From assembly GCA_010645155.1 (NCBI GenBank), contig CM021313.1, forward strand, positions 4,705,542-4,769,541: a stretch of 64,000 nucleotides of DNA, given 5' to 3'. Below the pieces are notes generated by a model that was given only the letters and a program-made list of their open reading frames with translations, ran no database searches and was not told where the DNA came from. Shown here piece after piece: positions 1-64,000 of this stretch (position 1 is the first letter of the stretch; the number at the start of each line of letters is the position of its first letter). Source of the stretch: Tigriopus japonicus (lineage: Eukaryota; Arthropoda; Copepoda; Harpacticoida; Harpacticidae). Both the position numbers and the translations under genes were made by a program.

Positions 1-1005
1 TTGGATCCTGGGGAGCTGTACAAGGTGGAGTTGAAGAGCAAAACCGGCAATGTGACTTGTCGATCCCCGATTCAAGAGAACATCATGACCATGCCCATTC
101 CGGTCAAGGGTCTCATGATCAGTCAAGTCAAGTCTGCGTCTTGCTTGATCCAGTGGCTCAGTCCTAGCGGTCATTCCTGCTTAAAAGGCTATCAAGTAGA
201 CGTGACATTGCAGGATGGGAAACTCTTCAAAAGTGCCACCGTATCCAAAAATACATGCGTCTTACGGATCAACGACATGATGTCTGCCACGGATTACGTG
301 GTAAGGGTCACCACACTCTGCGTTCACATGGATCAACGGACCGAGAGTGTCCCCGTGGAAATGTCCCTAAGTACTTTGCCTGAGCCCGTGAATAATATCC
401 GCATCGAAAATGTCACCCACAACTCGGCCGTTATCAAGTGGGACTCGGTGACCACTTTCGGCGCTCTGAATCCCTCCAATTGCATCTACAATCTGACCAT
501 CCAATGCCACGATATCGACTTCTTCTTCTGTGTCGACGTCGGTGGAGACAAGAATCAGTACCTTCTCTCCAAATTGCCCGACCCTCAGGGTTCAGGCAGA
601 AAGTTCAAGGTAGAGATGCGGGTCTCCATGTTGACGGTACAGGAGATTGAAGTCCAATCCGAAATCGTCGAGGAGGATTTCTACACGCCTCCAGTCAAGC
701 CCACTAATGTGAGGGTGGATTCGAAGAAGAACGAGATCATTTGGACCCCTTCTGAAACGACAAGTGTCACTGGGTACAGGGTTCGATGGAGGGCGGATGA
801 GGATGGTGGCAAAGCCCAGGAGATTATTGTGCCAGGCAATTCCGTCATTCTTCCAGATGTCAAACCCAACACCTTGTACAGACTCAATATTTTCGCCATG
901 GTGAACTTTGGCGGGCGACTCCTTTTGGAGTCCAAGGAACTTCATGAAAAGATTGAGTTAGATGAGAATGGGGTTATGAAAGTTCATGACGACGATCCAA
1001 GCTGA
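1..1005 (+). CDS. Partial LRRC8/pannexin-like FN3 protein, paralog 1 (3' end only)
   Basis: The reading frame is open from the window edge and stops at 1003-1005, so only the C-terminal 334 residues are visible. They align by eye, segment by segment, with the C-terminal parts of the genes at 7661 and 11995. The first residues match the end of the second fibronectin-III-like domain (DPGELYKVEL), and three further FN3-like domains follow, at about residues 33-125, 126-230 and 231-315. Shared signatures are GHSCLKG, LPDP-GSGRK and ESKELHEK near the C-terminus. The pore domain must lie upstream, outside the window. A polyadenylation signal AATAAA lies at 1156-1161. The role is inferred from the complete paralogs: the C-terminal part of a four-helix channel-like membrane protein. 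The tail (HDDDPS) is acidic, as in the paralogs. Confidence 0.85.
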   Translation: MDPGELYKVELKSKTGNVTCRSPIQENIMTMPIPVKGLMISQVKSASCLIQWLSPSGHSCLKGYQVDVTLQDGKLFKSATVSKNTCVLRINDMMSATDYVVRVTTLCVHMDQRTESVPVEMSLSTLPEPVNNIRIENVTHNSAVIKWDSVTTFGALNPSNCIYNLTIQCHDIDFFFCVDVGGDKNQYLLSKLPDPQGSGRKFKVEMRVSMLTVQEIEVQSEIVEEDFYTPPVKPTNVRVDSKKNEIIWTPSETTSVTGYRVRWRADEDGGKAQEIIVPGNSVILPDVKPNTLYRLNIFAMVNFGGRLLLESKELHEKIELDENGVMKVHDDDPS

Positions 1006-7660: not shown

Positions 7661-10270
7661 ATGGATGGAGGGATGGAGAAGGTGGTGAACTCGTGGCTCA
7701 TCGACCCAGCTTGGCAGAAGGTCTTTAAGCACACTTTGGACGTAATCACGGATTATGTGTCTTATGTCTTGGTCACTGTCGGGGCTGTGGCCTTAAGTGT
7801 GCGACTCCTTACAACTGTAGGAACTGGTGACCTCGTTTGTCTGATTGTAGGCGTCAAAGATGCTGAAATAGGCACATTGGGAGCGTATCCAGGGGGTGGA
7901 ACCTTGGGTCTCATCTCATATGCTCAAACTGAACAGTCATGCATCAATTCCGTGTTTTCACCGTTTAAGGAGTATCTCCCGTTCATCATGCTCTTACAGA
8001 CATTGATTTTGGTGATAGTGGAAAAGTTTACGTTCAAAATTCCACGAATTGCGCAAAAAGTGGAGCGATTCTACAAGAACATTGTGGAGGAATCTCTCTT
8101 TGGAAAAGATCCCGATGTGACAGAAGATATGACGGACACTAAAACAAGTACAGAGGCCATTTCCAGGCGAAGACAACGCAACGAGATTTGCGTCTCATTG
8201 AAAAGAAGCAGTATCATTCATCGGGTATATATTGGTAAAAACTTTGTCGAAATTATTCTGGGGATTATCTTCCTCTTGGTCAATTTGAAACATGCCCTTT
8301 TGCCTATGGATCCTAATACAAGATGCGAAGTCGAGATCCAATCGTTCCCCGGGATTGTCGATGAAGAAGGAACAGTGCTATTTCAATGCCGGGGCAAAAA
8401 GATGGCATTTTTTAACTTGGCTCTTTGGGCCCAGGTTATCTTGATCGGGATCCACGTGGTCCTCTCCTTTGGGTCCCTCATCTGGTGCTGGAGATTTAGA
8501 TCTGTGACAAGACTCCTCAAAACCATTGAGGCCATGCAAAAAGATTGGGAGCCGGATATCGTAAGTGGCGTCGAAGGTGCAGACTTTTTGTTCTTGTTTG
8601 ATTTACTCTCTCACAGTTGCGGTATCGAATCTACCCTCAGGGTTTTGACCCATTCCGATGATACATTCTACAATATATGTCGACCCAAGATCAATGCTAA
8701 GGACTTTCTTCACCTTGAAGAGGATCGTTTAAAAGTAACTTGGAGACCGGCCGACATTGAAAAATGGCTCCATAATGGAAAAAGGAAAAGCAACGCTGAG
8801 AAAATTATCACCGTTGATTGCTACGAAATCACCATTTTCCCTGCTGAATCCGTAAAGAACTCTCAATCTGTGGTCCCCAAAGAGTTGGGATTAGAAGGAG
8901 CTGAATACTCGGCCTGGTTTTATGATCTCCAAGGAGGTCGAACGGAATATGTTCTCACCGTCGCCACAATGATTGGAAAATCTCGAATGAAAGGAACCAA
9001 AATTATTACAACACTCATGCCCTATGGCCCCGAGCGTCCCAGAACTGGAATGCTGAAATCAGCTGGCACTCATCAAGTTGAAATATTTTGGGATCCCCCC
9101 AAAGGTGAATTCACAAAATATACATTGAGCGTGGAGCAACTGAGAGATATGTTCTCCCCGATTGGATCAGAATTTGGATCCATGGTTTCCACTTCCAGTT
9201 TAAACTCAACTGGAGAGACAGTGCGAAATCTACAGAATCTCAGTTACAAGCTCACAAACTACACAATCTTGGGTCTCAAACCTGGGGAATTGTACAAAGT
9301 TGAGCTTGGCACTAAAACTGCAAACGTGGCTTCTCGACAACCCATTATGGAATATATTCTCACGAAACCTCTTCCGTTGTCCGGATTAACCGCCAGTGAC
9401 ATTCACCCAAATTCTTGCGTAATCCAATGGTTCAAGCTCCACGGTCACTCTTGCCTGAAAGGATTTCACATCATCTTGACTACTAATGATGGCAAGACCT
9501 TCAAGAATATCACCATTCCGAAAATGGTCAAATCCTTCCGTTTCACGGATCTCGCACCAAGCACGGATTATGACTTCCACGTGACCACATTGTGCGTTAG
9601 CGGCGAAAAACGAACTGAAAGTGAACCTGCCGTCCTTCCTTTTAGTACCCCTCCCGAGCCCGTGAATAATTTGCGGCTAGAAGCGGCTTCATCCAATTCC
9701 CTACACGTCAAATGGGATCCTGTGACAGCACTCACGGCCAGTTTAGCCTACAATCTAGCAATTGAGTGCAAGGAGATCGAATACAGCTTCAGTGTCGACA
9801 TTACCGGAGACAAGTCACAGTATATGTTCTCAAAGCTCCCTGATCCTGATGGAAGTGGGCGGAAATATCAGGTCTCCATTCGAGTCTCTCTTCTGACCTT
9901 CAAGGAGAACGAAATCAAAAGCGAGACCTCCAAGGACTATTTTTACACACTACCCATTAAGCCCAGTAATCTGCGTGTTGGATCCGAACCAAACCAGATT
10001 GAATGGACGAAATCCCCAACCGCGACTGTAGAGAGCTACAGAATCAGGTGGAAAACGGAGGAAGAAGCCCCGATCAAACTGGAGGCCACTGTCGAGGACT
10101 GCAGTTATACTTTTGAGGATCTCCGACCTGGGACTGTTTACCGAGTAAATATCTACGCCATGGTCAGGACCCTGACTGGTTTTGTTGAGAGTAAAGAGCT
10201 CCATGAGAAGCTTGTGGTCGATGAAAACGGCCAATTATTTCTCTATGAGGATGAAGAAGGAAAGAACTAA
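7661..10270 (+). CDS. LRRC8/pannexin-like four-helix membrane protein with five FN3-like domains, paralog 2
   Basis: Single-exon 869-aa protein, probably a plasma-membrane channel subunit (inferred). Seen: TM1 at about 31-52 after DVITDYVSYVL, TM2 at 105-124 in EYLPFIMLLQTLILVIVEKF followed by TFKIPR, TM3 at 195-210 after RVYIGKNF, and TM4 at 249-277. Putative extracellular loops hold cysteines 60 and 94 (loop 1) and 222 and 243 (loop 2, CEVEIQSFPG...FQC). From family knowledge, LRRC8 proteins show the same order: TDYIS in TM1, YFPYLVLLHTLIF then FWFKFPR in TM2, YRLYMRQ before TM3, and a DCTVDIESLTG...YRC loop. LRRC8 then has leucine-rich repeats; here residues 350-850 instead form about five FN3-like units (PPKGEFTKYTL, GHSCLKGF, LPDPDGSGRKY, PGTVYRVNIYAM). 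The ATG at 7661 is chosen because it aligns with the start of the next paralog. If LRRC8 topology holds, the FN3 units are cytosolic. Confidence 0.85.
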   Translation: MDGGMEKVVNSWLIDPAWQKVFKHTLDVITDYVSYVLVTVGAVALSVRLLTTVGTGDLVCLIVGVKDAEIGTLGAYPGGGTLGLISYAQTEQSCINSVFSPFKEYLPFIMLLQTLILVIVEKFTFKIPRIAQKVERFYKNIVEESLFGKDPDVTEDMTDTKTSTEAISRRRQRNEICVSLKRSSIIHRVYIGKNFVEIILGIIFLLVNLKHALLPMDPNTRCEVEIQSFPGIVDEEGTVLFQCRGKKMAFFNLALWAQVILIGIHVVLSFGSLIWCWRFRSVTRLLKTIEAMQKDWEPDIVSGVEGADFLFLFDLLSHSCGIESTLRVLTHSDDTFYNICRPKINAKDFLHLEEDRLKVTWRPADIEKWLHNGKRKSNAEKIITVDCYEITIFPAESVKNSQSVVPKELGLEGAEYSAWFYDLQGGRTEYVLTVATMIGKSRMKGTKIITTLMPYGPERPRTGMLKSAGTHQVEIFWDPPKGEFTKYTLSVEQLRDMFSPIGSEFGSMVSTSSLNSTGETVRNLQNLSYKLTNYTILGLKPGELYKVELGTKTANVASRQPIMEYILTKPLPLSGLTASDIHPNSCVIQWFKLHGHSCLKGFHIILTTNDGKTFKNITIPKMVKSFRFTDLAPSTDYDFHVTTLCVSGEKRTESEPAVLPFSTPPEPVNNLRLEAASSNSLHVKWDPVTALTASLAYNLAIECKEIEYSFSVDITGDKSQYMFSKLPDPDGSGRKYQVSIRVSLLTFKENEIKSETSKDYFYTLPIKPSNLRVGSEPNQIEWTKSPTATVESYRIRWKTEEEAPIKLEATVEDCSYTFEDLRPGTVYRVNIYAMVRTLTGFVESKELHEKLVVDENGQLFLYEDEEGKN

Positions 10271-11994
10271 AGTCTCGGATCAAGCACCCACCGACTGATT
10301 CTTGTTAATATGTGAACCTGATTCATATTTTTGTATGAACGTTGTAAAACCTAGTATACTCGCTAATCACGCAAAAGCGGTTTGTATTCATCATTTCAAG
10401 TTCGATATCGATTTAATGTTTTCATTCACACATTGAGGGCCTTCTTTGTTTAGTTCTGGTTGGATGATGGTAAGTTTTACTTCATTAAATTGGTCGACCC
10501 AGTCAGCCAACGGGCAAATGGTTTGAAATTGTCACGGTCTCATTGGTCGATTTAACAGAAACAGGTTAATGCAAATTAAACAATAGAAACCGGACGTTAA
10601 AACAAGTGCAATGATGTGTTGGACGTACTTCGAGACACCAAGTCAAACCGCAAGAAGTGTGATTAAAAATAACTTTAAAACGTACGGCGGAGCGTTTGCT
10701 GTTCACAAAGGTCATTGGAATCCAGCCCATCATTTCTTTGAAAATTGAATGACGTGAGTCCCTTTCTGATACTTTCAAAATCCAGTTCAATCCGCTCTAC
10801 GAGGAATCTGGTAAAATAAGCGTTGGAGCGAACTCTCCAGTTGCATGACTCAGGTCGTTGGTTAGTTCATAACGGAGAACCTGGAGGGCTTGAAGTGCAT
10901 GGAACAAGGGCCTCTTATCGAAAGACGCAACTTCCAAAGCACATGATAGATTTAGCTGGCCCGCTTCAACGGCAGATGTCCACCTCCATGCAGAACATTC
11001 ACGGGAGGGTTTGGGCACTTGCAAGTACTGTTCACTCAAGGGGACTAGGACTAATCATGCTGTACGTAAACAACTGCAGAGTTTGGAGGGAAGGTGTATT
11101 TTCTGTCCATACCTGACTCTCCTCTCCGTTCAAAAAGTACTCACTTACACTCTATCCCTCATTTCTTGGAGATATCTAGCCATAGCAGTTGTTCGATATC
11201 ATAACTCTCGATTTGAAACGCGACAAACGTGTTCGACAACGACCGCAAAGTGAAAATCCATCTAGGCGGTAAGTTTTGCACATGCCAGTCTCGTCAGGAA
11301 AAGAATTTGAAGTTCTACTTATCAGTTGAGCCGTTTCCAAACATAAAGAATCAACGAGTGCAGTGCTCTCTCTGGTTTATGGAACATGCTGCAAAGAACC
11401 CCAATCAAGGAGCAAAATTGATTCAAGTAAAGCATCAAACTTCTAAATTTCACCATTGCTGCATGTCTTAGAGTAATTCTGGCCATTTCTTGCGTGTTCA
11501 AAGTTTTTAGTGAAAGATTTCAAACACTCAGTGAACATAGACTATCTCGAAGGGTGAAAAATCAAGGTATTTTGGCTCACTTCTGGAATTTTACCAAACC
11601 GTAGCTTAAATTAGTGAATTGCGCGAGAAAAATCTGAGAGCACTGTAGTAGTGAGTATCTATGTTGCTATCAATAATCCAATTATTTGTGGCGCCAAAAT
11701 AAGAGGTTGATGAGAAAGCTTGCATGTGTGCCAACGAGCTGGCATTTGGAGTGGTTGCTTTCTTCATATGGCTTTGACTAACGACCAAGATGGTTAGAAA
11801 GGAGAGTGCGATTGTGAACGTATTATGCTGTAAATGCTTTCCTTGTCTATTGTACCTTTTGCTCAAGCCTGAAGTTTTATCGCATTTCAGGACGATGATT
11901 TAAGAAGAAGTTGCCTCACTATCGGCGGTCACCAATTGCAACATCCGCTCAGCTCTAGTTCGGATTTGGACGAGTTCGACATTACTATCGCATA
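10271..11994. other. Intergenic region between paralogs 2 and 3
   Basis: No convincing gene. The short frames at 10797-11471 have no recognisable domain. A splice-acceptor-like catttcag ends at about 11890, roughly 105 bases before the start of paralog 3, so a 5' UTR intron is plausible here as for paralog 2. Confidence 0.55.
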
Positions 11995-14670
11995 ATGAGT
12001 ATTGAAGAGATCGCCAAATCTTGGCTCTTGGATCCGTCTTGGATCAAGGTGTTCAAACATACGTTTGACGTCCTTGAGGACTATGTGAGCTATGTATTAG
12101 TGTCCGTGGGCGCCATTGCCCTCTCAGTGAGGTTATTGACCACTTTAGGGACAGGTGATCTTATGTGCATCCTCATCGGTGTGCGTCACAACAATGAAAC
12201 CTTGGAAGATCTCGGCCCATATGCGGGTGGCGGAACCATCGGTATGATCAATTATGCCCAGACCGACCAGAGATGCATCCGTGAGGTCTTCACACCATTC
12301 ATGGAGTACTTGCCCTATCTGATGCTTTTGCAAACACTCATCCTGATTGTGGTGGAGAAGTTCACCTTCAAGATTCCGAGGATTGCACAAAAAGTGGAGC
12401 GGTTTTACGCCAACATAGTGGAACAGTCCTTATTTGGCAAAGATCCCGATGTTGCCGAGGACATGACGGACCCTAAAACGAGTACGGAGGCTATTTCTAG
12501 ACGGAGGCAAAGAAATGAGATATGCGTCTCACTGAAACGCAGTAGCATCATATATTCCGTGTACATTGGCAAGAACTTTGTCAAAGTGTTCTTGGACATA
12601 TTTTTCCTGACCGTGGATATCAATTATACCCACGAGGGTACGAGATCCTCCGCAGCTTGTGTAATAGAGATTGAAGACTTTCCCGGAATTGTGGATGGAC
12701 CAGGATTGGTACATTTCCAATGTAGAGGCAAGAAATTGGACTTTTTCATGATTGCCTTGTATACTCACGTTGTTTTGCTTGGCCTACATCTCCTGTTGTC
12801 GTTGGGAGCCATCGTGTGGTGTTTTGGTTTCCGATCCGTATCCAAGCTATTGACCACAATTGAGAACACGAGGAAGGAATGGGAGCCAAGTATCGTATCA
12901 AAACAGGATGGATCCGACTTCTTGTTTCTCTTCGATCTTTTGGCACATAGTTGTGGGATTGAGTCAACACTCAGAGTACTGACACACTCTGACGACACGT
13001 TTTACGAAATTTGTCGGCCAAACATGGCATCCCCTCAAGATCTCCAGTTGGAAGAGGACAAACTAAAAATTACATGGGAACCCGCAGACATTGAGAGATG
13101 GCTTCATAGTGGTAAACATGGAGCACGAATCTCGAGTTCCATTGAAATCGACAGCTACGAGGTGACAATATTTCCAGCAGAAACTGTGAACAACTCTCAA
13201 ACGGTCTCCGCAACGAAGTTCAAAAACAAACCCGCATACTCAGTTTGGTTTTACGACCTTATTGGAGGCAAAACTGAGTATGTGATTACAATTGCTTGCA
13301 TGATTGGAAAGTCGCGAATGAAGGGCGAAAAGGTGGTCACCACCTTGATGCCCTATGGACCTGAAAAACCTAGATCTGGCATGCTGAAGTCATCGGGCAC
13401 CAATCAAGTGGAAATATTTTGGGACCCACCCAAAGGAGATTTTACCAAGTATACCCTAATGATTGAAAAGATCACTGATGACGTGAAAGACAAAGACCAA
13501 AACAAAGAAATCGTCACGGACAATCTACCCATTGTACGGCTAAATTCGGGCAGGTCAAGAGAAACTCTACCTGATGGTAGCGCCTATTTTGACAAGTCCA
13601 ATCTCCGGCACATGGAAAACCTCAGCGCAAAATTGACAGAGTACACAATTTTGGGATTGGATCCAGGTGACAAGTATAAAGTTCAGCTTGGGACCAAAAC
13701 TGGCACCGTCTCCACCCGTCAATACATCTATGATACAGTTATTACCCGTCCAGCTCAGGTCTCTGGCTTATTGGCCAGGGATATCAAGAATACGTCCTGC
13801 ATAATTCAATGGTTCAGTCTTGAGGGGCATCCATGTCTGAAAGGCTTTCAAATCCAAGTAAAGACCCATGATGGCAAAGAGTTCAAGAGTGTGGCAGTGC
13901 CGAAGAGTGCCAAGACTTTCAATGTGTATGGGATGTCCCCTAGCTCTGACTACGACGTCAGCATTACAGCCCTCTGTGTTTACCAAGATCGCAGGACACA
14001 AGGTGACCCAACCACAATCCCTGTGACAACTCTGGCTGACCCTGTGAAGAATCTCCGCATGGAAAACTCGACCCCGAACTCCATCTTTGTGAAATGGGAT
14101 GCTCCCACGGGAGTCATGAACCCTCAGAATGCCAAGTATAAAATCACCATTTCAGCGCCTGAACTGGAATTCTCCCAAACTGTAGATCTTAGCGGAGACA
14201 AGACGCAATACAATTTCTCCAAACTTCCCGATCCAGAAGGCTCAGGCCACATGTTTAAGATTGACGTTCAAGCCTCCATTTTGACAATTCGAGAGCACGA
14301 GGTAACCAGTGACCCCTCCACGTTGAATTGTGCCACCCTGCCGCACAAGCCCAGTGGCTTCAAAATCGGAACGAGGCCATTTGACATTGTTTTCACTAAA
14401 TCTCCTACCCCTACGGTGTCCTCTTACAAAATCAAATGGAAGTCCATTGAAGAAGGATCCAAACCAGAGGAAACCATTATTCCCACATCTCAGTCTGAGG
14501 AACAACACTTTAAGCTGAAAGGGCTCACTCCAAATCTAGTTTACAAGGTGAATGTTTACGCACTCGTCACTCTGCCCAACGATGTTGTCCTGGAGAGCAA
14601 AGAGCTCCATGAGAAAGTGATCCTAGATGAGGCCAGCAAGGAGCTCAAAGTATTTGTTGATGAAATGTAA
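11995..14670 (+). CDS. LRRC8/pannexin-like four-helix membrane protein with five FN3-like domains, paralog 3
   Basis: Single-exon 891-aa protein, collinear with the gene at 7661 over its whole length. Seen: TM1 in EDYVSYVLVSVGAIALSVRL, TM2 in EYLPYLMLLQTLILIVVEKF followed by TFKIPR, TM3 after SVYIGKNFVKV, and TM4 at FFMIALYTHVVLLGLHLLLS. All four putative extracellular-loop cysteines of paralog 2 are kept. The TM2-TM3 cytosolic loop (SLFGKDPDV, STEAISRRRQRNEICVSLKR) is nearly identical between the two and is the most constrained segment. The main length difference is a charged insert of about 20 residues in the second FN3-like unit. The C-terminus keeps ESKELHEK and an acidic tail. It lies 1.7 kb downstream of paralog 2 on the same strand, as expected of tandem duplication. 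Channel function is inferred; the chimeric architecture is read directly. Confidence 0.86.
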   Translation: MSIEEIAKSWLLDPSWIKVFKHTFDVLEDYVSYVLVSVGAIALSVRLLTTLGTGDLMCILIGVRHNNETLEDLGPYAGGGTIGMINYAQTDQRCIREVFTPFMEYLPYLMLLQTLILIVVEKFTFKIPRIAQKVERFYANIVEQSLFGKDPDVAEDMTDPKTSTEAISRRRQRNEICVSLKRSSIIYSVYIGKNFVKVFLDIFFLTVDINYTHEGTRSSAACVIEIEDFPGIVDGPGLVHFQCRGKKLDFFMIALYTHVVLLGLHLLLSLGAIVWCFGFRSVSKLLTTIENTRKEWEPSIVSKQDGSDFLFLFDLLAHSCGIESTLRVLTHSDDTFYEICRPNMASPQDLQLEEDKLKITWEPADIERWLHSGKHGARISSSIEIDSYEVTIFPAETVNNSQTVSATKFKNKPAYSVWFYDLIGGKTEYVITIACMIGKSRMKGEKVVTTLMPYGPEKPRSGMLKSSGTNQVEIFWDPPKGDFTKYTLMIEKITDDVKDKDQNKEIVTDNLPIVRLNSGRSRETLPDGSAYFDKSNLRHMENLSAKLTEYTILGLDPGDKYKVQLGTKTGTVSTRQYIYDTVITRPAQVSGLLARDIKNTSCIIQWFSLEGHPCLKGFQIQVKTHDGKEFKSVAVPKSAKTFNVYGMSPSSDYDVSITALCVYQDRRTQGDPTTIPVTTLADPVKNLRMENSTPNSIFVKWDAPTGVMNPQNAKYKITISAPELEFSQTVDLSGDKTQYNFSKLPDPEGSGHMFKIDVQASILTIREHEVTSDPSTLNCATLPHKPSGFKIGTRPFDIVFTKSPTPTVSSYKIKWKSIEEGSKPEETIIPTSQSEEQHFKLKGLTPNLVYKVNVYALVTLPNDVVLESKELHEKVILDEASKELKVFVDEM

Positions 14671-30800: not shown

Positions 30801-33800
30801 CTAACGGGGTGTATTTCACGATCGAGGAGAAATATGCCATCACCAAGGAAATATGGACAAACAAACTGGTGCATGCAGAATGCGCAGCGGTCGTGAAGCT
30901 ACAAACCTAGGTATGGTACATCAGTCCCCTGGTTTGAGGGCTCAATTTCGTTGCCAGAGTTGAAGTCAATGGCCCGGGGTTGTTGTGACTGAGACTTTGG
31001 AACAGCTTCCGTGACAGCTTCACTTTCGGCCTCACCCTCGGGATAAGGTTCGGTGGTGGAACTATCCAACTCTGGCTCAACCTCTGGCTCACTGTCTGTG
31101 TCATCATGCGTTTCTGGCTCAGACTCAGCCTCTGGCTGGTTGGTAGTAGTCTCTTCCAAAGCATCAATTCCTTGAGTGGTAGGTGTCTCAGTGTTGTCCG
31201 ATGGCTCTGCGGAAGACTCAGCCGTCGCTTCAGGGGTCTCTGTAACTTGAGACACATCTGGTTCAGTCGTTGTGACTGTAGCTTCAGCTTCGGCCTCAGG
31301 CTCGATTGTGGTCTCTTGTTGACGCAGAATCGATTCAACAAGGGTTGAATCGGCTTCCACATCGATTGAGGTGTCTGGGAAAGCTTCAGACTCAAAAGAA
31401 ATTTCTAAGACAAAGAGAGCAATGAGGAAACCGGAATAAGACAGAGAAGTGCGAATGAAGTATGGATACATTTTGTTCAATGCGAAAGCGTGCTCAAATC
31501 AACAATAATGGACAGACATTCTTGTAGTTTTAAAAGATAGAAGTAATACTAGCTACCAACTATTTACACCGTAGAAGGATTGATTGATGGATTGACACAA
31601 AATGACCATTCTAATCGACTCGTAATCTCAGTCGACTTACCTTCAAGCTCTGAAGATCTCTTCTTTCTGTTTCCAGTACTAACGGAGGTCTTGACAAAAC
31701 CAATGCTCACATCAATGCTCTTCTCCACACGTCGACCACTCCGACTTTGAGACAGAGCCTCAGCCTCAATGGCTTCATTATCAGAATCAGGCTCTGCTTC
31801 AGAATCGGCATGACTTTCGGCCTCGGCTTCGGCCTCGGATTTACCCTCGGGTTCGGATTCGGCATTAGACTCCGGCTCGGATTCTGATTCGGCTTCACGT
31901 TCTCCTTCAGGCTCGGTATCGGCGGAATTCAGTTCACTGGATTCGTAATCCAACGATTCATTCTCAGGATCGACGATTCGGGGAAACCGTTGGCAACTTT
32001 TATCGGCAGTCTTGGGCCTCCACCCGATGGCAGCATAACCAGTGCCTTTGATCTGCATGACCACTTCGATTTCTTGAACATCGCGAAGAATTCTCCACAT
32101 CAACTTGTAGTTGGGAGCGATTTCTCTTGAAGTGTACAGACCCTCTTGAATCTCATTTGATTTCACGGGGGATTCTGAAAAGTATTTCATTTCAAATCGA
32201 CATTAATTCACTTCTTTCTAAAAAAAAAACCGCATTAACAGAGGTCACAAATCGGTATGGAGACTTCCCAATCTATTATAAGCTTAATNNNNNNNNNNNN
32301 NNNNNNNNNNNNNNNNNNNNNNNNNNNNNNNNNNNNNNNNNNNNNNNNNNNNNNNNNNNNNNNNNNNNNNNNNNNNNNNNNNNNNNNNNNNNNNNNNNNN
32401 NNNNNNNNNNNNNNNNNNNNNNNNNNNNNNNNNNNNNNNNNNNNNNNNNNNNNNNNNNNNNNNNNNNNNNNNNNNNNNNNNNNNNNNNNNNNNNNNNNNN
32501 NNNNNNNNNNNNNNNNNNNNNNNNNNNNNNNNNNNNNNNNNNNNNNNNNNNNNNNNNNNNNNNNNNNNNNNNNNNNNNNNNNNNNNNNNNNNNNNNNNNN
32601 NNNNNNNNNNNNNNNNNNNNNNNNNNNNNNNNNNNNNNNNNNNNNNNNNNNNNNNNNNNNNNNNNNNNNNNNNNNNNNNNNNNNNNNNNTAACAATGAGA
32701 ATTATGATTTCCAGAAGGATTAATGCGTTCTTCTGCAACCGAGACCTGGCTTGTTTTCAGTGGACGACGTTTTTCAATTTTTAGCTTAATCGAATGCCAG
32801 AGTGAAAAGTTATGCTTTCTCAAACTAATGTACCAAAGAGAGCATAAAATGAATGAGTTCGCCCCCTTTTGTGGTAGAACAATTGCCAGAAAAGGGCTAG
32901 TTCATTCGTTCTCGGTAGGACATGCACTGAACTTTGACAGAGCATAACTTTTGACTCCGACGTTTGATTGAGCTAAAAATTGAAATACATATTCAAGTCA
33001 ACATAGACAAGGTCTCACTTGCAGAAGAACGTAGTTGATCAGTTCCTGGTGGAAATAATGTCTCTTTTCGTTAGCCTCCCAGTCCAGTGAAATTCAGTGG
33101 TTCTTGATTAAAGTAAGGGCTTCATCTACACGAAAAATCGAGCTTCACGTGTTTCAGCCACCATTAATTCTAACCTTATGAGGACAATTGCACCGCTAAA
33201 TGGCCACCCAATTAAAGTTTGAGACAAAAAAAGTCTTTCCCTTTCCGCCTTACCCTTTGTGCATTCATCACCAAAATAACCGATCTCGCAGAAGCATTGC
33301 TTCCGAGGTGCAGTGGTGGCATCCACATCCACACATTGGCCCCGTCTTCCACAATCTTCGTCCTTTTCGCATTCATCCTTATATTGGCAACGTTCGCCTA
33401 ATAGAAAGCGGAAATATTTGCCCATTGCATTACTCCGTCCTTGTTTTGAACCTACCGAAGTAAAGCCTGTCGCATCGACAACGACCGGCCAAAGCACGTC
33501 CATGCCCATTGCAGTCTTCGCTGTATTTTCCGGGATGCACAATGTCCACATCGGCGCACGACCAAAACAAGTAGCGTTTACTCCACTCCAAAGCTTGACG
33601 CACCAATCGAATCGAACAGTCTTCACACTCAAGATCCACAGGTATTTCCAAGAGATGACTCTGGGCACTAAAATGGTAACCCTTAAGATGATGAATCTAT
33701 GGTAAAATGAGGAAGATTATGGTCTTTACGTGGTGTCTCCGGTAACGTATTCATTGTCAGATTGAGGGGTCAAAGCTTGGATGACTTCCTCATTTGAATT

Positions 33801-51911: not shown

Positions 51912-52895
51912 TCAGACTTTGACAAGTTCCAGAAGAGCGGTTCGCATTTTCTTATTACGGATATATATAATAATAGGACTGATCAGTGATCCCACAAAGT
52001 AGTACATCAAGTGAATGGAGGGGATCAGTACAAATTGCATGGTTTCTTGAGAGGATTCGGATTCGGTTCCGTTGGGAAACCGCAATCTTAAGATGACACT
52101 AGGAATCACGGCAATAGTCAACAAACAAAACACACTTCCAGCTGTTGAAAATAGATCGGCAACTGCACTGTGATTGCCCATTGCAGCAAAACAGTTATGA
52201 GACCGATTTTGTTGTTCCTTCAAGCATTGGACCTTGTTCTTTTTCAGGTCAGATTTTCGTTTCTCTACAAACATCTTCATATGTAAGAATAAATAGAGAA
52301 TTCCGGTAAGTAGACAAAGGATTGTTGAAGGGCTTTTAGGGTAAACTTTGGGATATTCTTCGTAACTTTGAGGGTCTTCTCCGGTACACAATGCATAATC
52401 CAATCGATAGATGTTGTAAACCAAGAACTGGCACATGGCATACATGCCACCAAAAAAGGTGTTCAACACGGTTAAGAACTGTTCAAAGAAGTCGTCGTTC
52501 AAGGCTCCGACGTTCTTCCACTTGAATGCGTATAGATAACGAAAAATCACGGATTCGTTAACGCTTAATAACGCCGAAAAGAAGGTCCAATGTTGGATGG
52601 AACTCTGGATGATGCACACGAATGGAGGATAGGGTCCCAGGGAAAATCGGAAGCACATCACATTAACACTGATGATATTGTTGAATAAAATGCAGATACA
52701 TGTGTACGAGTTCAAACTATTTAGTAGAGTTCGCTCGTAATTGGTGCCAAAACGCTCGTACCAAATCATTCCTAGGAGGAGTCCGTTGCCAATGACTTCA
52801 AGAAAAGTCCAGGATATCATGAAAAAAGCGATGTTATATGGGTTCAAGTAGAGATCTTTGAAGTAGTCGGTTGTTCCATTGATCTCCCCGACCAT
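51912..52895 (-). CDS. Orphan seven-transmembrane receptor, rhodopsin-like
   Basis: Intronless 327-aa membrane protein with about seven hydrophobic helices: about 18-42 (FMISWTFLEVIGNGLLLGMI, with the GN pair typical of class A TM1), 62-82, 93-115, 140-162, 190-210, 248-272 and 290-312. An Asn-glycosylation site (NGT) lies in the N-terminal tail. The end of TM3 reads VIFRYLYAF, where class A receptors have DRY, and TM7 reads SPIIIYI where NPxxY is usual, so both activation motifs are degenerate. A cysteine in CIIQSSIQHW before TM3 and one in YALCTGED in loop 2 could form the usual disulfide. The C-tail is short and basic (RNKKMR). Plausibly a chemosensory or peptide receptor of a lineage-specific family; the ligand is unknown. 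It lies about 600 bases downstream of the PGAP4-like gene, same strand. Confidence 0.7.
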   Translation of the reverse strand: MVGEINGTTDYFKDLYLNPYNIAFFMISWTFLEVIGNGLLLGMIWYERFGTNYERTLLNSLNSYTCICILFNNIISVNVMCFRFSLGPYPPFVCIIQSSIQHWTFFSALLSVNESVIFRYLYAFKWKNVGALNDDFFEQFLTVLNTFFGGMYAMCQFLVYNIYRLDYALCTGEDPQSYEEYPKVYPKSPSTILCLLTGILYLFLHMKMFVEKRKSDLKKNKVQCLKEQQNRSHNCFAAMGNHSAVADLFSTAGSVFCLLTIAVIPSVILRLRFPNGTESESSQETMQFVLIPSIHLMYYFVGSLISPIIIYIRNKKMRTALLELVKV

Positions 52896-55489: not shown

Positions 55490-56479
55490 TGAAAGTAGAG
55501 TGACCCAGTGGGCTATGACAAATACAAAAGCATTTTTCTCTTTCGCAAATATAAAGAGAAAAATGAAACAACCAGTAGGACCTTTTGAGGTCGACGGTAA
55601 AACTGTCAATGATAATGAAATAATGGCCAATATGCTTAGAGTTCAGTTCTTTGGTATATTTTCAATTTCGAAAAGGGTAGAAAAAGCAGGCCATGATGCT
55701 ACGAGTAATGTTGTTACTGAAACAGGCATTCATGGTCAGGATAATCGATTGGAGGATCTGGTAGTCACAGATCAAGATGCTCTTGAAGCCATCAAGAGCT
55801 TAAAGCTCTCGAGTTCTCATGGATTTGATGGTGTGACGTCTCAGTTTTTTGATAAAATGTTCACAAATACTTAACCATGTTTTCTCCTTTTTGATGCGTT
55901 GCATCTTAGATCAGGGCAAGTTTCCCTCTTCTTTAAAAGTAGCTCATGTCGTTCCAATTTTTAAGGGCGGAGATAAGTCACTCCCTAGTAATTATAGGCC
56001 CATTTCTCTGACTTCCAGTATTGCAAAGGTGTTTGAGAAGATCATGAAGTCCAAGCTTGTTGAGTATTTGGAAGCCCATGATATCATTCCCCCGGGGCAG
56101 CATGGGTTTCGAGCCCATTTTAGTACTGTCACCCAATTGGGTGACCATATTGAGCAGATCGCTGAAGGGCTTGAAAGTCACGAGTCAGTAGTTGATGTAG
56201 TCTATCTTGACTTTGCCAAGGCCTTTGATGAGGTAGATCATGGTCTTTTGCTCGATCAACTCAAAGAGTTTGGGGTCCAGGGTAAGGTCCTGAATTGGAT
56301 TGATAGTTTTATAAGTGAAAAGAAGGAAATAGTTAAAGTTGAAGGATCTTTTAGCAGCATTTATAATGTCAAGTCAGGTGTGCCGCAAGGTTCAATTTTA
56401 GGTCCGCTCTTGTTTATTCTCTTTATTGCTCCTCTCCAGAAGTTTAGAACAAAAGCCAGTATTTCTTCATATGCTGATG
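55490..56479 (+). pseudogene. Non-LTR retrotransposon A, 5'-truncated left part (RT up to YAD)
   Basis: The peptide aligns with ORF2 of element B from AFFSFANIKRKMKQPVGPF onward: AIKSLKLSSSHGFDGVTSQF, YRPISLTSSIAKVFEKIM, QHGFRAHFSTVTQL, VVYLDFAKAFDEVDH, SGVPQGSILGPLLF, SISSYAD. A frameshift lies near 55855. Everything upstream of the RT (endonuclease, ORF1) is missing, as in typical 5' truncation. Homology stops within the YADD codons at 56479, where another element is inserted; it resumes at 62074. It is dead and older than element B. Confidence 0.85.
56473..56479 (+). repeat. Target-site duplication, left copy
   Basis: gctgatg lies directly before the left inverted-repeat end and matches ggtgatg (62074-62080) directly after the right end, with one mismatch. 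In the uninterrupted element these bases encode A-D of YADD. Confidence 0.65.
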
Positions 56480-56578
56480 CAAGGAGATCTTCAGACTCTG
56501 GAGACTCAGTCACGCTGGGAAACGACAGTTGAGAGACAGCGGGAGTGCAGTCTACTTTATAAATAGAAACTAGGTGAT

Positions 56579-57355: not shown

Positions 57356-58051
57356 TTGAAATTTCTTTCGAAATTTTCTACCAAGCCTCTATTCTCAATA
57401 AATGGTAACGCGCTACTAATTGAAGACGACACAAATTCCTCCGGGAACGCGGAATCTCTTGAATTAATTGAAAAAGTCGAGTCAAATGGTGTATTGCTGG
57501 AATTGAATAAGGTGACTCCGATATGTAACGTACACCGGAGGCAGTTTTGCCCAAACAGAAAGAATGGTTGTTTGCTAGACCACCCTAAGTGGTGTCCTAA
57601 ACTAACTCAGTACGGACTGAAAAAACATAACAGCAAAGGATGTAGTAAAGACAATTGCGAGTTATTTCACCCCTTCATGTGCCTCAAATCAATGAAATTT
57701 GGAAACTGCTACAATCCCAAGTGCAAGTATGCTCATGTTAAAGGGACGCAACGCAAGCGCCCAGCCTTTGTGAGCTTCAATCCCCCGGCACAACCCTCAA
57801 ATCCTATCTGTATTCCTTTCCCTCCCCCTTCCGTCCACTACCCTCGGTTCAGTCAGTTGGGGGCCCACATCGGCAATTCACCTCAAACTTATTCAAATGT
57901 TGTTACTTCCCACTCATCTCGACCTACGGTCCCCAGTGTGGGAACACAAGAAAATCCCAATGCATTTGTAGCAAAAGTGGATTTTTTACGGCTCGAGGGG
58001 ATGGTCCAAAACCTAATTTTAATGATGCAACAGAAAAACCAAGTTACTTGA
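57356..58051 (+). CDS. Non-LTR element B ORF1, triple CCCH zinc-finger protein
   Basis: A 231-codon frame with no ATG at its 5' end; the upstream sequence in the same frame is closed by TAG at 57344, so the true start is unclear. Three CCCH-type fingers are visible: C-x7-C-x6-C-x3-H (CNVHRRQFCPNRKNGCLLDH), C-x15-C-x4-C-x3-H, and C-x8-C-x4-C-x3-H (CLKSMKFGNCYNPKCKYAH). A Pro/Ser-rich stretch and a short helix (FLRLEGMVQNLILMMQQ) end the protein. This ORF normally binds the element's RNA in a ribonucleoprotein (family knowledge for non-LTR ORF1). It overlaps ORF2 at its stop (ttga). A slippery heptamer lies 60 bases before that stop. Confidence 0.7.
   Translation: MKFLSKFSTKPLFSINGNALLIEDDTNSSGNAESLELIEKVESNGVLLELNKVTPICNVHRRQFCPNRKNGCLLDHPKWCPKLTQYGLKKHNSKGCSKDNCELFHPFMCLKSMKFGNCYNPKCKYAHVKGTQRKRPAFVSFNPPAQPSNPICIPFPPPSVHYPRFSQLGAHIGNSPQTYSNVVTSHSSRPTVPSVGTQENPNAFVAKVDFLRLEGMVQNLILMMQQKNQVT
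57982..57988 (+). promoter_or_regulatory. Candidate -1 ribosomal frameshift site (TTTTTTA)
   Basis: ORF1 is read ...GAT TTT TTA CGG..., so the heptamer T TTT TTA is in the exact X XXY YYZ phase used for -1 slippage. The -1 frame from here is free of stops (TTT TTT ACG GCT CGA ...) and runs straight into ORF2. No clear stimulatory hairpin is evident by eye downstream. Confidence 0.55.
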
Positions 58052-61002
58052 AAGGAATTTACCTTAACACTCAATGTCTCATTTCAAAAAAAGACTCTTC
58101 CAAGATCAAACTGCTCGAAGAATTGGCCATAGCCAAACGGATCATTTTTATTTCCCTCACTGAAACTTGGCTAAGGAACGGGGTACTTGATGAAGAGTTG
58201 AAAATAAAAGGCTTCACATTATTCCGCTGTGACAGAGAGAGGCCCAGTAATCCAATTTTTCCCCACGGCGGAGTATGTCTTTACATCAAAAATGAATACA
58301 TAACGTCTACCACCAAAATGTCTAACGGAGAAGTGGAGATTTTGATAGCGCATGTAACGTCCATTGATTTAACATTAATCACCGTCTACAGACCTCCCAA
58401 TAGCTCTCTTAGTGCATTTAATGATGGTCTTGTATTTATTCAAAACGAATTAGCAAAATCTCTTTGCTCACAGTACATCATCATGGGAGATTTCAATTTT
58501 TCAAAAAACACGGTTGAGTGGCACCCTACCCCACTAGGTTATATCCCACTTCCGAAATCATTTTCCAAATACTTTCAAAGATTTGAAGACTTTATGCGAG
58601 ATAATAACCTCTCTCAGCATGTTGGAATGGCTACACGGGAAGACAGTATTCTCGATTTAGTGCTTTCCAGCGATCCAGACTTGGTAACAAGTGTTCAAGT
58701 GTCGCAGACTAACATCTCGGATCACAATATACTTGAATTATGTACACATATTGAAAATGTCAAAACAAAAGGTAAAACTCTTGGAGTAGTCTCCAAAATT
58801 GGATTAACCAAGTACCGGTTCAAAGAGGAGCATTGGCCCTCTATTAATATAAGCCTAGAATCACTCGACCTTGTTTATAAAATGGAAAAGATTGATAAAA
58901 TTGACGAAGCTTATGATGTCCTGATATCAACTTTTGATGAAGTGTGTGCCAATACGGGGGTACCCATTTTAAAAAACAAAACAGGGGGCGTGAAAATACC
59001 CAAAGAGAGGCAAAAACTTTTCAAGAAGAGAGTTTCCTTGACAAAAAGACTAAAATCATGCGGTAGTCATTCATTAAGGTATCGTAGTATAAACAAACAG
59101 ATCACCACCATTGATGTTCTTCTCAAATCCTCTTTTGAACGGGACCAATTGAGGAAGGAGAGGAAAGTTGTTCAGGATGTAAAACAAGACCCTAAAGCTT
59201 TTTACTCTTATGCAAACTCCAAACGGAAGAACAAACCTCCAATTGGTCCTTTTCGTTTGGCGGACAAAGAAGTATCCGACCCATCTGGTATGGCGGACAT
59301 TCTTAGCAATCAATTTACCTCCGTGTTCTCTACCCCTACCCATTGCAAATTGAACCACCCTAGTTCATACGACAATTCTTTCTCGCTAGAAGACATAATC
59401 GTCGAAGAAAAGGACGTCATTGAAGCAATTAGATCTCTAAAGTCGTCCAGCTCTCCAGGACCTGACGGCGTGACGGTCCAATTCCTTAAGCGAACCGCCA
59501 AAGTTATTTACCCTATGCTTGCATACATAATGAAACGGTCATTAGTGGAGGGACTCATTCCTGATCAACTTAAAACCGCCCACGTTATCCCTATTTACAA
59601 GGGTGGCGCTAGGGATGAGCCTGCCAATTACCGACCAATATCCCTAACCTCAAATATTGCCAAAGTCATGGAAAAAATCGTAAAGGTTAAGCTTGTTGAA
59701 CACCTTAACAGAAAAGAGGCCATTCCTCCACAACAACACGGGTTTCGTGCTCATTTTAGCACATTGACACAATTAATCCAACACTTTGACAACATAATTG
59801 AGGGACTTCAGCACCATGATTGCGTAGATGTTATTTATCTAGACTTTGCCAAGGCTTTTGACAAAGTAGACCATGTTCTACTGCTTAATTGTTTAGCTGA
59901 AAATGGAGTGGTAGGAAATGTTTACTTGTGGCTTAAAGGGTTTTTAACCAACCGGACTCAAACCGTGAAAATTGAAGGGAGCTTGGGAAATCCCAGCCAA
60001 GTTGTGTCCGGTGTCCCACAAGGGACAATACTGGGACCAGTGTTGTTCACATTATTTATCGCTTCCTTACACAGATTGCCCCTACACTCGTCTATCTCAT
60101 CATATGCCGACGACACCAAGCTAGTGTTTGGTAGAAAATCCCATAACACCACTGACTTGCAAAACGATTTAAACCTGGTTTACGAATGGGTAGCTGGACG
60201 GAACATGTCATTAAACGGAGATAAGTTCCGAATGATGACCTACAATCCAGCTGGAATTGATGCACCCACCTATACAGATAATTGCCAGAACCCTATTGTG
60301 TATGAAAGTACTATTAAAGACCTTGGAATAACAATAGAAGACAACGGGAAATTTGATAAACACATACAATTGAAAGTGACTAAGGCTTATCAAACATGCG
60401 GTTGGATCTATCGCACATTCAAATCAAGGGACCAATACATAATGAAAACCCTTTATAGGTCGATAGTCCAGCCACATTTGGAATATGCCTCCCCCATCTG
60501 GGCGCCACTAACAGCGGGAGGGCTGAACAAAATTGAAAGTGTGCAACGGAGCTTTACTAGATCTATTGATGGCATGAGCGGCCTAAATTACTGGGCACGC
60601 CTCAAGGTTTTAGATTTATATAGCATTCAACGAAGGTATGAGCGTTACCTGATTCTTTATGTTTTCAAATGTCTTCATGACTTGTGTCCAAACCCAGGAA
60701 TAACACATAATCAAAACGATAGGAGAGGCATTACTTGTAATACGAGGTTCAGAATTCACCCAATAGACAAACAACTAGTCAAGAACTTGAAGTGTTCTTC
60801 TGTCTTGAATCGAGGACCAAGCCTATATAACTTGCTCCCCAGTTCTCTCAGACGATTCTATAAATTAGATAACCCGTTGTTCAGCTTTAAACGCGATTTA
60901 GATTGTTTCTTACAATCTATACCGGACCAACCAAATGCTCAAGGTTGCATGAGAGCGGCAAATTCAAATAAGTTGTGTGACCAAATATTTTATCAAACAT
61001 AA
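58048..61002 (+). CDS. Non-LTR element B ORF2, endonuclease-reverse transcriptase
   Basis: A 984-codon frame without internal stops. The APE-type endonuclease spans about 1-230, with LTETWL (catalytic Glu), GGVCLYIK, TVYRPPNSS, IIMGDFNF and ISDHN. The reverse transcriptase spans about 440-760, with SSSSPGPDGVT, YRPISLTSNIAKVMEKIV, QHGFRAHFSTLTQL, VIYLDFAKAFDKVDH, SGVPQGTILGPVLF and the active site SYADDTKL. The C-terminal region holds QPHLEYASPIWAP and YERYLILYVFKCLHDLCPN, common in CR1/Jockey-type elements. It nicks target DNA and copies its RNA in place. No ATG precedes the endonuclease (the first Met lies in TKMSNGEVEI), and the only start-like codon, TTG at 58048, overlaps the ORF1 stop. 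Translation as an ORF1-ORF2 fusion or by reinitiation is therefore likely. Confidence 0.88.
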   Translation: MKGIYLNTQCLISKKDSSKIKLLEELAIAKRIIFISLTETWLRNGVLDEELKIKGFTLFRCDRERPSNPIFPHGGVCLYIKNEYITSTTKMSNGEVEILIAHVTSIDLTLITVYRPPNSSLSAFNDGLVFIQNELAKSLCSQYIIMGDFNFSKNTVEWHPTPLGYIPLPKSFSKYFQRFEDFMRDNNLSQHVGMATREDSILDLVLSSDPDLVTSVQVSQTNISDHNILELCTHIENVKTKGKTLGVVSKIGLTKYRFKEEHWPSINISLESLDLVYKMEKIDKIDEAYDVLISTFDEVCANTGVPILKNKTGGVKIPKERQKLFKKRVSLTKRLKSCGSHSLRYRSINKQITTIDVLLKSSFERDQLRKERKVVQDVKQDPKAFYSYANSKRKNKPPIGPFRLADKEVSDPSGMADILSNQFTSVFSTPTHCKLNHPSSYDNSFSLEDIIVEEKDVIEAIRSLKSSSSPGPDGVTVQFLKRTAKVIYPMLAYIMKRSLVEGLIPDQLKTAHVIPIYKGGARDEPANYRPISLTSNIAKVMEKIVKVKLVEHLNRKEAIPPQQHGFRAHFSTLTQLIQHFDNIIEGLQHHDCVDVIYLDFAKAFDKVDHVLLLNCLAENGVVGNVYLWLKGFLTNRTQTVKIEGSLGNPSQVVSGVPQGTILGPVLFTLFIASLHRLPLHSSISSYADDTKLVFGRKSHNTTDLQNDLNLVYEWVAGRNMSLNGDKFRMMTYNPAGIDAPTYTDNCQNPIVYESTIKDLGITIEDNGKFDKHIQLKVTKAYQTCGWIYRTFKSRDQYIMKTLYRSIVQPHLEYASPIWAPLTAGGLNKIESVQRSFTRSIDGMSGLNYWARLKVLDLYSIQRRYERYLILYVFKCLHDLCPNPGITHNQNDRRGITCNTRFRIHPIDKQLVKNLKCSSVLNRGPSLYNLLPSSLRRFYKLDNPLFSFKRDLDCFLQSIPDQPNAQGCMRAANSNKLCDQIFYQT

Positions 61003-63146: not shown

Positions 63147-64000
63147 TCAATGCTTCACCTGCGTTTTCTTCATCTCCAAATTCCATTTTTTCTTCTTTCT
63201 TCTCATCCACAATTTGCCTCGTCCAGCATCAACCACCATTCCATGCTCTCGTAAGAAATCCATTCCCAGCACCGGGGTCTCGACTTCACCTATCCAGAAG
63301 GGGTGCAATATCTTGAGGTCTCCGTACTCGACTAAGCATTTCTCTCGACCCACCAACTTTATGGGCGCGCCACTTATTGTCCGACACTCCAATATCCAGC
63401 CATCTTCCCCATTCTCCCCATCTTTTGACTTAGGTATGACACTCACGGTTGCTCCCGTGTCCACCAGCACCGACGTCTTCTGCCCATGGAGTTTAATATC
63501 GACCATGAATTGGTCATTTCCTATAATTGCATCCACGTGCTCTTCTTTCTTGATTGGACACTGTCTTGCAAAATGTCCACCACGATTGCAAATGAAGCAT
63601 TTCAATTCTATTCTTCGGTCAATCTCCGTAGAACGCACTTCTCGCAGATTCTCTCCGTAGCAATGCTCCGCATATCCTCGTCCCAATGTCTCATTCACAC
63701 CTTGAGCCATCAACGCAGTCTGAACGGCCTCTTCCAATTTGGCATTCCTCCCGTTTAAGGCGACCTCCTTCAAATCCATCCGTAGCCCAAGTACAAAACG
63801 ATCTCTGACAAGAGCATCGCGGTTTGATTTCTCAAATTTGGGATAGCACTCCTTGACCACCCCTTTCACCCGTTGCACGAAGTGTTGTACCGTTTCTCCC
63901 TCTTTCATATCCAGGTTCCAGAAGAAACTCTGCACAGAGGCCTCTCTATAGACTTCTTCAGACGGAAGAAGGGATGACTTGATCAGTTCAAAACTGCTCA
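63147..64000 (-). CDS. LTR-retrotransposon-like gag with zinc knuckle and aspartic protease (partial)
   Basis: Minus-strand frame open from the window edge (upstream residues SSFELIKSSLLPSEEVYREA) to a stop at 63147. Seen: a gag/capsid-like region (FFWNLDMKEGETVQHFVQRV, then RDRFVLGLR), a CCHC zinc knuckle (CFICNRGGHFARQC, C-x2-C-x4-H-x4-C), and a retropepsin-type aspartic protease with VLVDTGATVSVIP and VLGMDFL. The frame then stops after a Lys-rich tail, with no reverse transcriptase downstream; the old non-LTR element A ends about 110 bases away. It could be a Gypsy-like element whose pol lies in another frame or has been lost, or a domesticated gag-protease gene. Open and uninterrupted over more than 280 codons. 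Confidence 0.8.
   Translation of the reverse strand, partial: SSFELIKSSLLPSEEVYREASVQSFFWNLDMKEGETVQHFVQRVKGVVKECYPKFEKSNRDALVRDRFVLGLRMDLKEVALNGRNAKLEEAVQTALMAQGVNETLGRGYAEHCYGENLREVRSTEIDRRIELKCFICNRGGHFARQCPIKKEEHVDAIIGNDQFMVDIKLHGQKTSVLVDTGATVSVIPKSKDGENGEDGWILECRTISGAPIKLVGREKCLVEYGDLKILHPFWIGEVETPVLGMDFLREHGMVVDAGRGKLWMRRKKKKWNLEMKKTQVKH

Follow-up and report, generated by a model that had tools for sequence, protein, structure and literature searches.

What kind of protein arises when a pore of the LRRC8 type is followed by fibronectin type III (FN3) domains in the place of leucine-rich repeats (LRRs)? The question is raised by a 64,000-nucleotide stretch of the genome of the copepod Tigriopus japonicus (hereafter the window), where two complete intronless genes, A and B, lie in tandem with the 3' end of a third paralogue, gene C. 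A preliminary description had interpreted A and B as an LRRC8-like four-helix domain fused to about five FN3 repeats, and both genes are indeed open over the spans it gave (Table 1). From profile comparisons and a structure model, we consider their products to be, with fair probability, subunits of a copepod LRRC8-type large-pore channel.

An LRRC8-type pore module

Each predicted protein comprises an LRRC8-type four-helix pore and a linker that ends where the LRRs of LRRC8 start, followed by a β-rich domain, D1, and four FN3 domains. In Pfam searches (cut-off 25 bits), the LRRC8 pore family PF12534 (Pannexin_like) matched protein B with 59.8 bits and protein A with 44.8 bits, and it matched all ten pore slices of a diverse set. 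A profile built from pore slices found 31 sequences in the PDB, namely 26 of LRRC8A, LRRC8C or LRRC8D, three of pannexin-2 and two sorting nexins. The best LRRC8 match reached 55.9 bits (E 2.9e-14) and the best pannexin-2 match 24.5 bits, while the sorting nexins were not significant. Aligned to LRRC8A with hhalign, the family profile gave a probability of 97.9% (E 6e-13) over 286 columns. The pore fold and helical linker are collinear with LRRC8A to about its residue 399. The comparison with pannexin-1 (PANX1) was not meaningful (0.3% probability), and pannexins PANX1-3 lack FN3 domains. An NCBIfam search returned no match.

The similarity to LRRC8A-E extends over the N-terminal helix, four transmembrane (TM) helices, a strand and helix in extracellular loop 1, strands in loop 2, the FK(I/F)PR motif after TM2 and the helical linker after TM4. 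The motifs quoted in the preliminary description are all present: FTFKIPR after TM2, RVYIGKNF or SVYIGKNF before TM3, and CEVEIQ...FQC or CVIEIE...FQC in loop 2. The C-terminal module differs from that of LRRC8A-E. No LRR family matched at E<=1 in A, in B or in the open reading frames (ORFs) of gene C and of two further paralogues on contigs C9 and C7, where fn3 was found instead. Because LRRs are a defining feature of LRRC8, we do not file these proteins as LRRC8; judged by sequence, they are relatives of its pore with a new tail.

The FN3 array and its side of the membrane

Over the whole proteins, the fn3 model (PF00041) scored 115 bits in A and 91.8 bits in B. When each unit was scored alone against the 25-bit cut-off, four of the five units of B and three of the five of A exceeded it. 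D1 (residues 350-455 of B) was matched by no Pfam FN3 model, and its likeness to the other four units is weak (E 0.003-0.015). The array as read from sequence is thus four FN3 domains by profile plus one divergent β domain, and the earlier count of about five holds for four units, the fifth not being recognised as FN3 by Pfam. The second unit of B carries an insert modelled with low confidence, whose RL(N/T/S)S motif recurs in 5/25 rows.

The structure model contains four TM helices. Hydropathy analysis of A, B, C and the C9 paralogue (19-residue mean, threshold 1.6) recovered all four in A and C, and detected no hydrophobic segment after residue 345 in any of the four proteins (best 0.86-1.21). 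Since four helices are modelled and a further hydrophobic segment is absent, the FN3 array is supported to lie on the side of the membrane that carries the LRRs in LRRC8, where it had also been placed before. Lys/Arg residues number 12 (A) and 11 (B) in the TM2-TM3 loop but 2 and 3 in loop 1, an excess that fits both termini being cytosolic, as in LRRC8.

Conserved residues of the pore

The four loop cysteines are invariant (38/38, 44/44, 45/45 and 45/45 rows having a letter) and are a feature in common with LRRC8A-E, which has six; those of LRRC8A are distributed as four and two over the extracellular loops, and C58 of the copepod proteins aligns with its C57 in hhalign. TM1 has a basic residue 46, Arg or Lys, in all 37 rows having a letter. 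Of 44 rows, 43 carry Leu, Met or Ile at residue 84 and the remaining one carries Tyr; this residue aligns without a gap to Leu105 of LRRC8C when the pore profile is compared with PDB sequences. Arg103 of LRRC8A is described as setting selectivity for anions over cations, and the Leu of LRRC8C as widening the pore (PMC9851909, PMC10049205). The copepod constriction would probably be hydrophobic as in LRRC8C, and not formed by Arg as in LRRC8A.

The intracellular loop is the best conserved part of the family, the commonest residue having a mean share of 0.82 (25 rows). It is short, in contrast to the long and variable loop of LRRC8. In gene B, it carries DPDVAED and RRRQRNEIC stretches.

Paralogues and distribution

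The genome searched comprises 194.85 Mb in 158 contigs, with the window placed on contig C10. A PF12534 search gave ten first-pass candidates, every one of which was scored, and five loci resulted: the tandem cluster of C, A and B, one locus on C9 and one on C7. The entire ORF of gene C (872 aa) starts just upstream of the window, and the C9 ORF (891 aa) is identical to database protein P0003; these two scored 42.6 and 42.8 bits for PF12534, and 91.1 and 93.8 bits for fn3. On C7, a 378-aa ORF with PF12534 (44.2 bits) is followed by a 412-aa ORF with fn3 (62.9 bits). A probe from the second subfamily described below, P0067, gave six matches, all within the same five loci.

The paralogues diverge most at third codon positions (for A and C, 0.311/0.197/0.606 at positions 1/2/3), and A shares 94.5% identity with a protein of Tigriopus californicus. 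We rejected the possibility that A, B, C and C9 are pseudogenes, as their frames are open and the substitution pattern is purifying. Chance resemblance was likewise rejected in view of the strong match of the profile to PDB sequences, the five genomic loci, the 63 database proteins, the invariant loop cysteines and the third-position bias. Two side observations concern the other contigs. The C7 member (L008, 1626-4141) is split over its two ORFs, perhaps by a short intron or by decay, and its T. californicus relative P0021 has a long branch (1.34). Matches to innexin exons (6667851-6680596) begin ~7.5 kb downstream of the C9 paralogue (6657768-6660395), probably by coincidence.

The 63 database proteins, among them P0002 (gene B) and P0008 (gene C), were found at E<=1e-3 in a single-protein search restricted to candidates of 0.55-1.75 times the query length, a restriction biased towards long proteins; all 63 carry fn3 in their precomputed domains. 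Two alignment searches gave 59 and 163 proteins, the best 120 of the 163 being listed. Most rows are nameless, and the species spread rests on the named ones: among the matches listed, those to the pore that bear a species name or species locus tag come from T. californicus, Lepeophtheirus salmonis, Caligus rogercresseyi and Eurytemora carolleeae, all of them copepods. These relatives support placing the family in Copepoda, though they do not prove that other groups lack it, and with the profile matches they bear out the proposed fusion, in an arthropod lineage, of FN3 domains to an LRRC8-type pore. Twelve short rows were read: 11 of them continue into the next domain, and P0107 (352 aa) stops right after the pore. 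Rows P0103-P0106, which include two carp receptor phosphatases, looked like FN3-only relatives of the array and were dropped. Some family members bear misleading database names ('similar to COL7A1', 'receptor type, J').

Two subfamilies separate in a 32-row tree, for which the only root is the midpoint. Subfamily I holds the Tigriopus, salmon-louse and Eurytemora rows, while GFUD transcripts, presumably from Neocalanus, occur in both, and FN3 domains follow the pore in each. The pore-FN3 architecture thus seems to predate the divergence of the main copepod orders.

Alternative explanations

The alternative that survives best concerns history. An ancient pore without LRRs may have gained LRRs in chordates and FN3 domains in copepods separately, so that the FN3 module replaced nothing; we give this a chance only a little short of even. 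In both deep subfamilies and at all five genomic loci, the pore is followed by FN3; the profile search of this genome found no PF12534 locus free of FN3, and Nematostella is reported to have LRRC8-like genes (PMC9399500). Against it, no clear full-length relative lacking both LRRs and FN3 appeared among the matches listed, in searches that reach close relatives only. Of the earlier proposal that an FN3 module took the place of an LRR module, the fusion of pore and FN3 stands; replacement is one of two possible histories, and the different sensor or scaffold is a conjecture. The mechanism would be the same under either history, and separate fusion and membership of an LRRC8-type channel do not exclude each other.

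It is improbable that the proteins are arthropod innexins that grew LRRC8-like, acquired FN3 domains and form gap junctions or hemichannels. Innexins are abundant in this genome (91 PF00876 matches, mostly exons), they have the large-pore fold in common with LRRC8 (PMC6086657), and the post-TM4 motif, and only that motif, aligns with innexin-6 (1.5% probability, E 0.035). The 91 matches also show that the PF00876 model works on this genome; yet contig C10 has none of them and neither the C9 nor the C7 locus is overlapped by one, and the model matched neither A nor B at E<=1, nor any of the ten pore slices at E<=10, a setting at which the filters of HMMER discard most matches above about 0.1. 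The PDB library searched contains innexin-6, which is not among the 31 matches of the pore profile. CALHM models, for which there was no positive control, gave no match at the same thresholds. Membership of either family was rejected on this profile evidence; the absence of innexins and CALHM from the 50 VIA rows listed excludes nothing. Slightly less probable still is that the four helices merely anchor an FN3 adhesion or scaffold protein, perhaps with the FN3 domains outside, as FN3 arrays are commonest in extracellular proteins and the database names point that way; the four modelled TM helices, the LRRC8-like linker directly preceding the array, the conserved loop cysteines and loop-1 residues, and the Lys/Arg distribution speak against it.

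Several observations weigh against the proteins being LRRC8-type channel subunits. The proteins share little sequence identity with LRRC8A (26% over the columns aligned by hhalign), and the weak post-TM4 resemblance to innexin-6 has been mentioned. The hydropathy scan misses TM3 in protein B and TM1 in the C9 paralogue. The linker after TM4 has a net acidic charge (Lys/Arg 8 and 7, Asp/Glu 11 and 11, in A and B), which lends the proposed topology no support and does not decide it. In hhalign, a six-residue gap falls at residue 84 and leaves Arg103 of LRRC8A unpaired, so that the equivalence of residue 84 to the position of LRRC8C L105 and LRRC8A R103 is only probable. With two cysteines per loop, at most two disulfides could form, compared with three extracellular ones in LRRC8 (PMC6086657). 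In a tree including LRRC8A, PANX1 and INX-6, LRRC8A fell among the copepod rows and the innexin and pannexin fell outside them (85/92); this tree is saturated, its end branches amounting to 8-10 changes per column, and it cannot be used for placement. Finally, gating by LRRs is itself unsettled for LRRC8.

Features of the window

The coordinates are collected in Table 1. Outside the gene cluster, the window contains mobile-element ORFs and a few unassigned ones; unread bases (X in ORFs) follow the Glu/Ser-rich ORFs at ~32290-32700, and ARAGORN found no tRNA.

Table 1 Features of the window, with residue numbers for the predicted proteins
Feature	Position	Strand	Description	Basis
Gene C, 3' end	1..1005	+	Third tandem paralogue; last part of FN3 array and stop	Pfam
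Gene A	7661..10270	+	869 aa, intronless ORF; pore module, D1, FN3 x4	ORF, Pfam
A, pore module and post-TM4 linker	7661..8707	+	Residues 1-349; boundaries transferred from B	PF12534, 44.8 bits
A, D1	8708..9028	+	Divergent β domain, FN3-like at most	No fn3 profile match
A, FN3 domains 2-5	9029..10207	+		fn3 30.2, 41.6, 20.9, 43.2 bits singly
Gene B	11995..14670	+	891 aa, intronless ORF; architecture as gene A	ORF, Pfam, structure model
B, pore module	11995..13041	+	Residues 1-349; N-terminal helix, four TM, post-TM4 helical linker	
B, TM1	12061..12153	+	Residues 23-53; basic residue 46	Model, alignment
B, extracellular loop 1	12154..12309	+	C58, C94, hydrophobic residue 84	Alignment
B, TM2	12310..12372	+	Residues 106-126, then FKIPR	Model
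B, intracellular loop	12376..12546	+	Residues 128-184; most conserved region	Alignment
B, TM3	12547..12636	+	Residues 185-214	Model helix; under hydropathy threshold
B, extracellular loop 2	12637..12735	+	Invariant C222 and C243	Model, alignment
B, TM4	12736..12828	+	Residues 248-278	Model, hydropathy
B, post-TM4 helical linker	12829..13041	+	Residues 279-349; collinear with LRRC8A to about residue 399	
B, D1	13042..13359	+	Residues 350-455; β-rich, weakly FN3-like	Model, profile tests
B, FN3 domains 2-5	13360..14613	+	Residues 456-873	
B, insert in second unit	13480..13599	+	Residues 496-535; IVRLNSGRS stretch	Low confidence (pLDDT <50)
Glu/Ser-rich repetitive ORFs	~30899-32190	-		One matches low-complexity acidic-repeat model below cut-off
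327-aa ORF	51912-52895	-	Rich in hydrophobic segments; looks receptor-like	No Pfam match at E<=0.001
Second reverse-transcriptase ORF	55849-56532	+	Upstream of retrotransposon	
Non-LTR retrotransposon	57356-61002	+	984-aa ORF with endonuclease and reverse transcriptase; the 231-aa ORF before it has no Pfam match	Domains
Gag-like ORF	63147-63998	-	Zinc knuckle and retroviral-type aspartyl protease; open at window edge	

Discussion

By homology with LRRC8, the predicted subunits would have both termini in the cytosol and form a ring of six or seven, mixed rings being allowed by the tandem paralogues, and they would conduct chloride and organic osmolytes. Lined probably by Leu or Met, the outer constriction would leave a wide pore. 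In LRRC8, activity is described as tracking the conformation and mobility of the LRRs, and pore lipids as closing the channel (PMC9851909, PMC10049205, PMC12795811). By analogy, and with less certainty, we expect the FN3 arm to do the job that corresponds to that of the LRRs. Either neighbouring arms may pack against each other and shut the channel until swelling or low ionic strength releases them, or the arm may tether the channel to cytosolic partners, swelling then pulling on the linker. Integrin beta-4 is a membrane protein whose cytosolic FN3 array binds cytoskeletal linkers; being a single-pass receptor and not a channel, it is a precedent for cytosolic FN3 only.

LRRC8 is described as restricted to chordates (PMC9851909) and as probably arising when a pannexin pore was joined with LRRs at the origin of that group (PMC5064130), and volume detection by the volume-regulated anion channel (VRAC) is called a longstanding problem (PMC10049205). 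We found no publication joining LRRC8 with copepods in a full-text search whose coverage leaves out most subscription papers, and an FN3-bearing LRRC8 relative, of which the preliminary description knew none, is reported in none of the literature matches listed.

A conserved copepod family of this kind takes the history of the LRRC8-type pore outside chordates. We further propose, tentatively and with the chances somewhat against it, that the pore is older than chordates and that copepods run an LRR-free, volume- or force-gated anion and osmolyte channel gated by a cytosolic FN3 arm. If true, the LRRs would be one interchangeable gating arm, outside the core volume-sensing machine. The same pore with a different cytosolic arm would be a natural domain swap and offers a way to ask what the LRRs do. 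For Tigriopus, which meets strong salinity swings in its rock pools, a volume channel would have a plain use.
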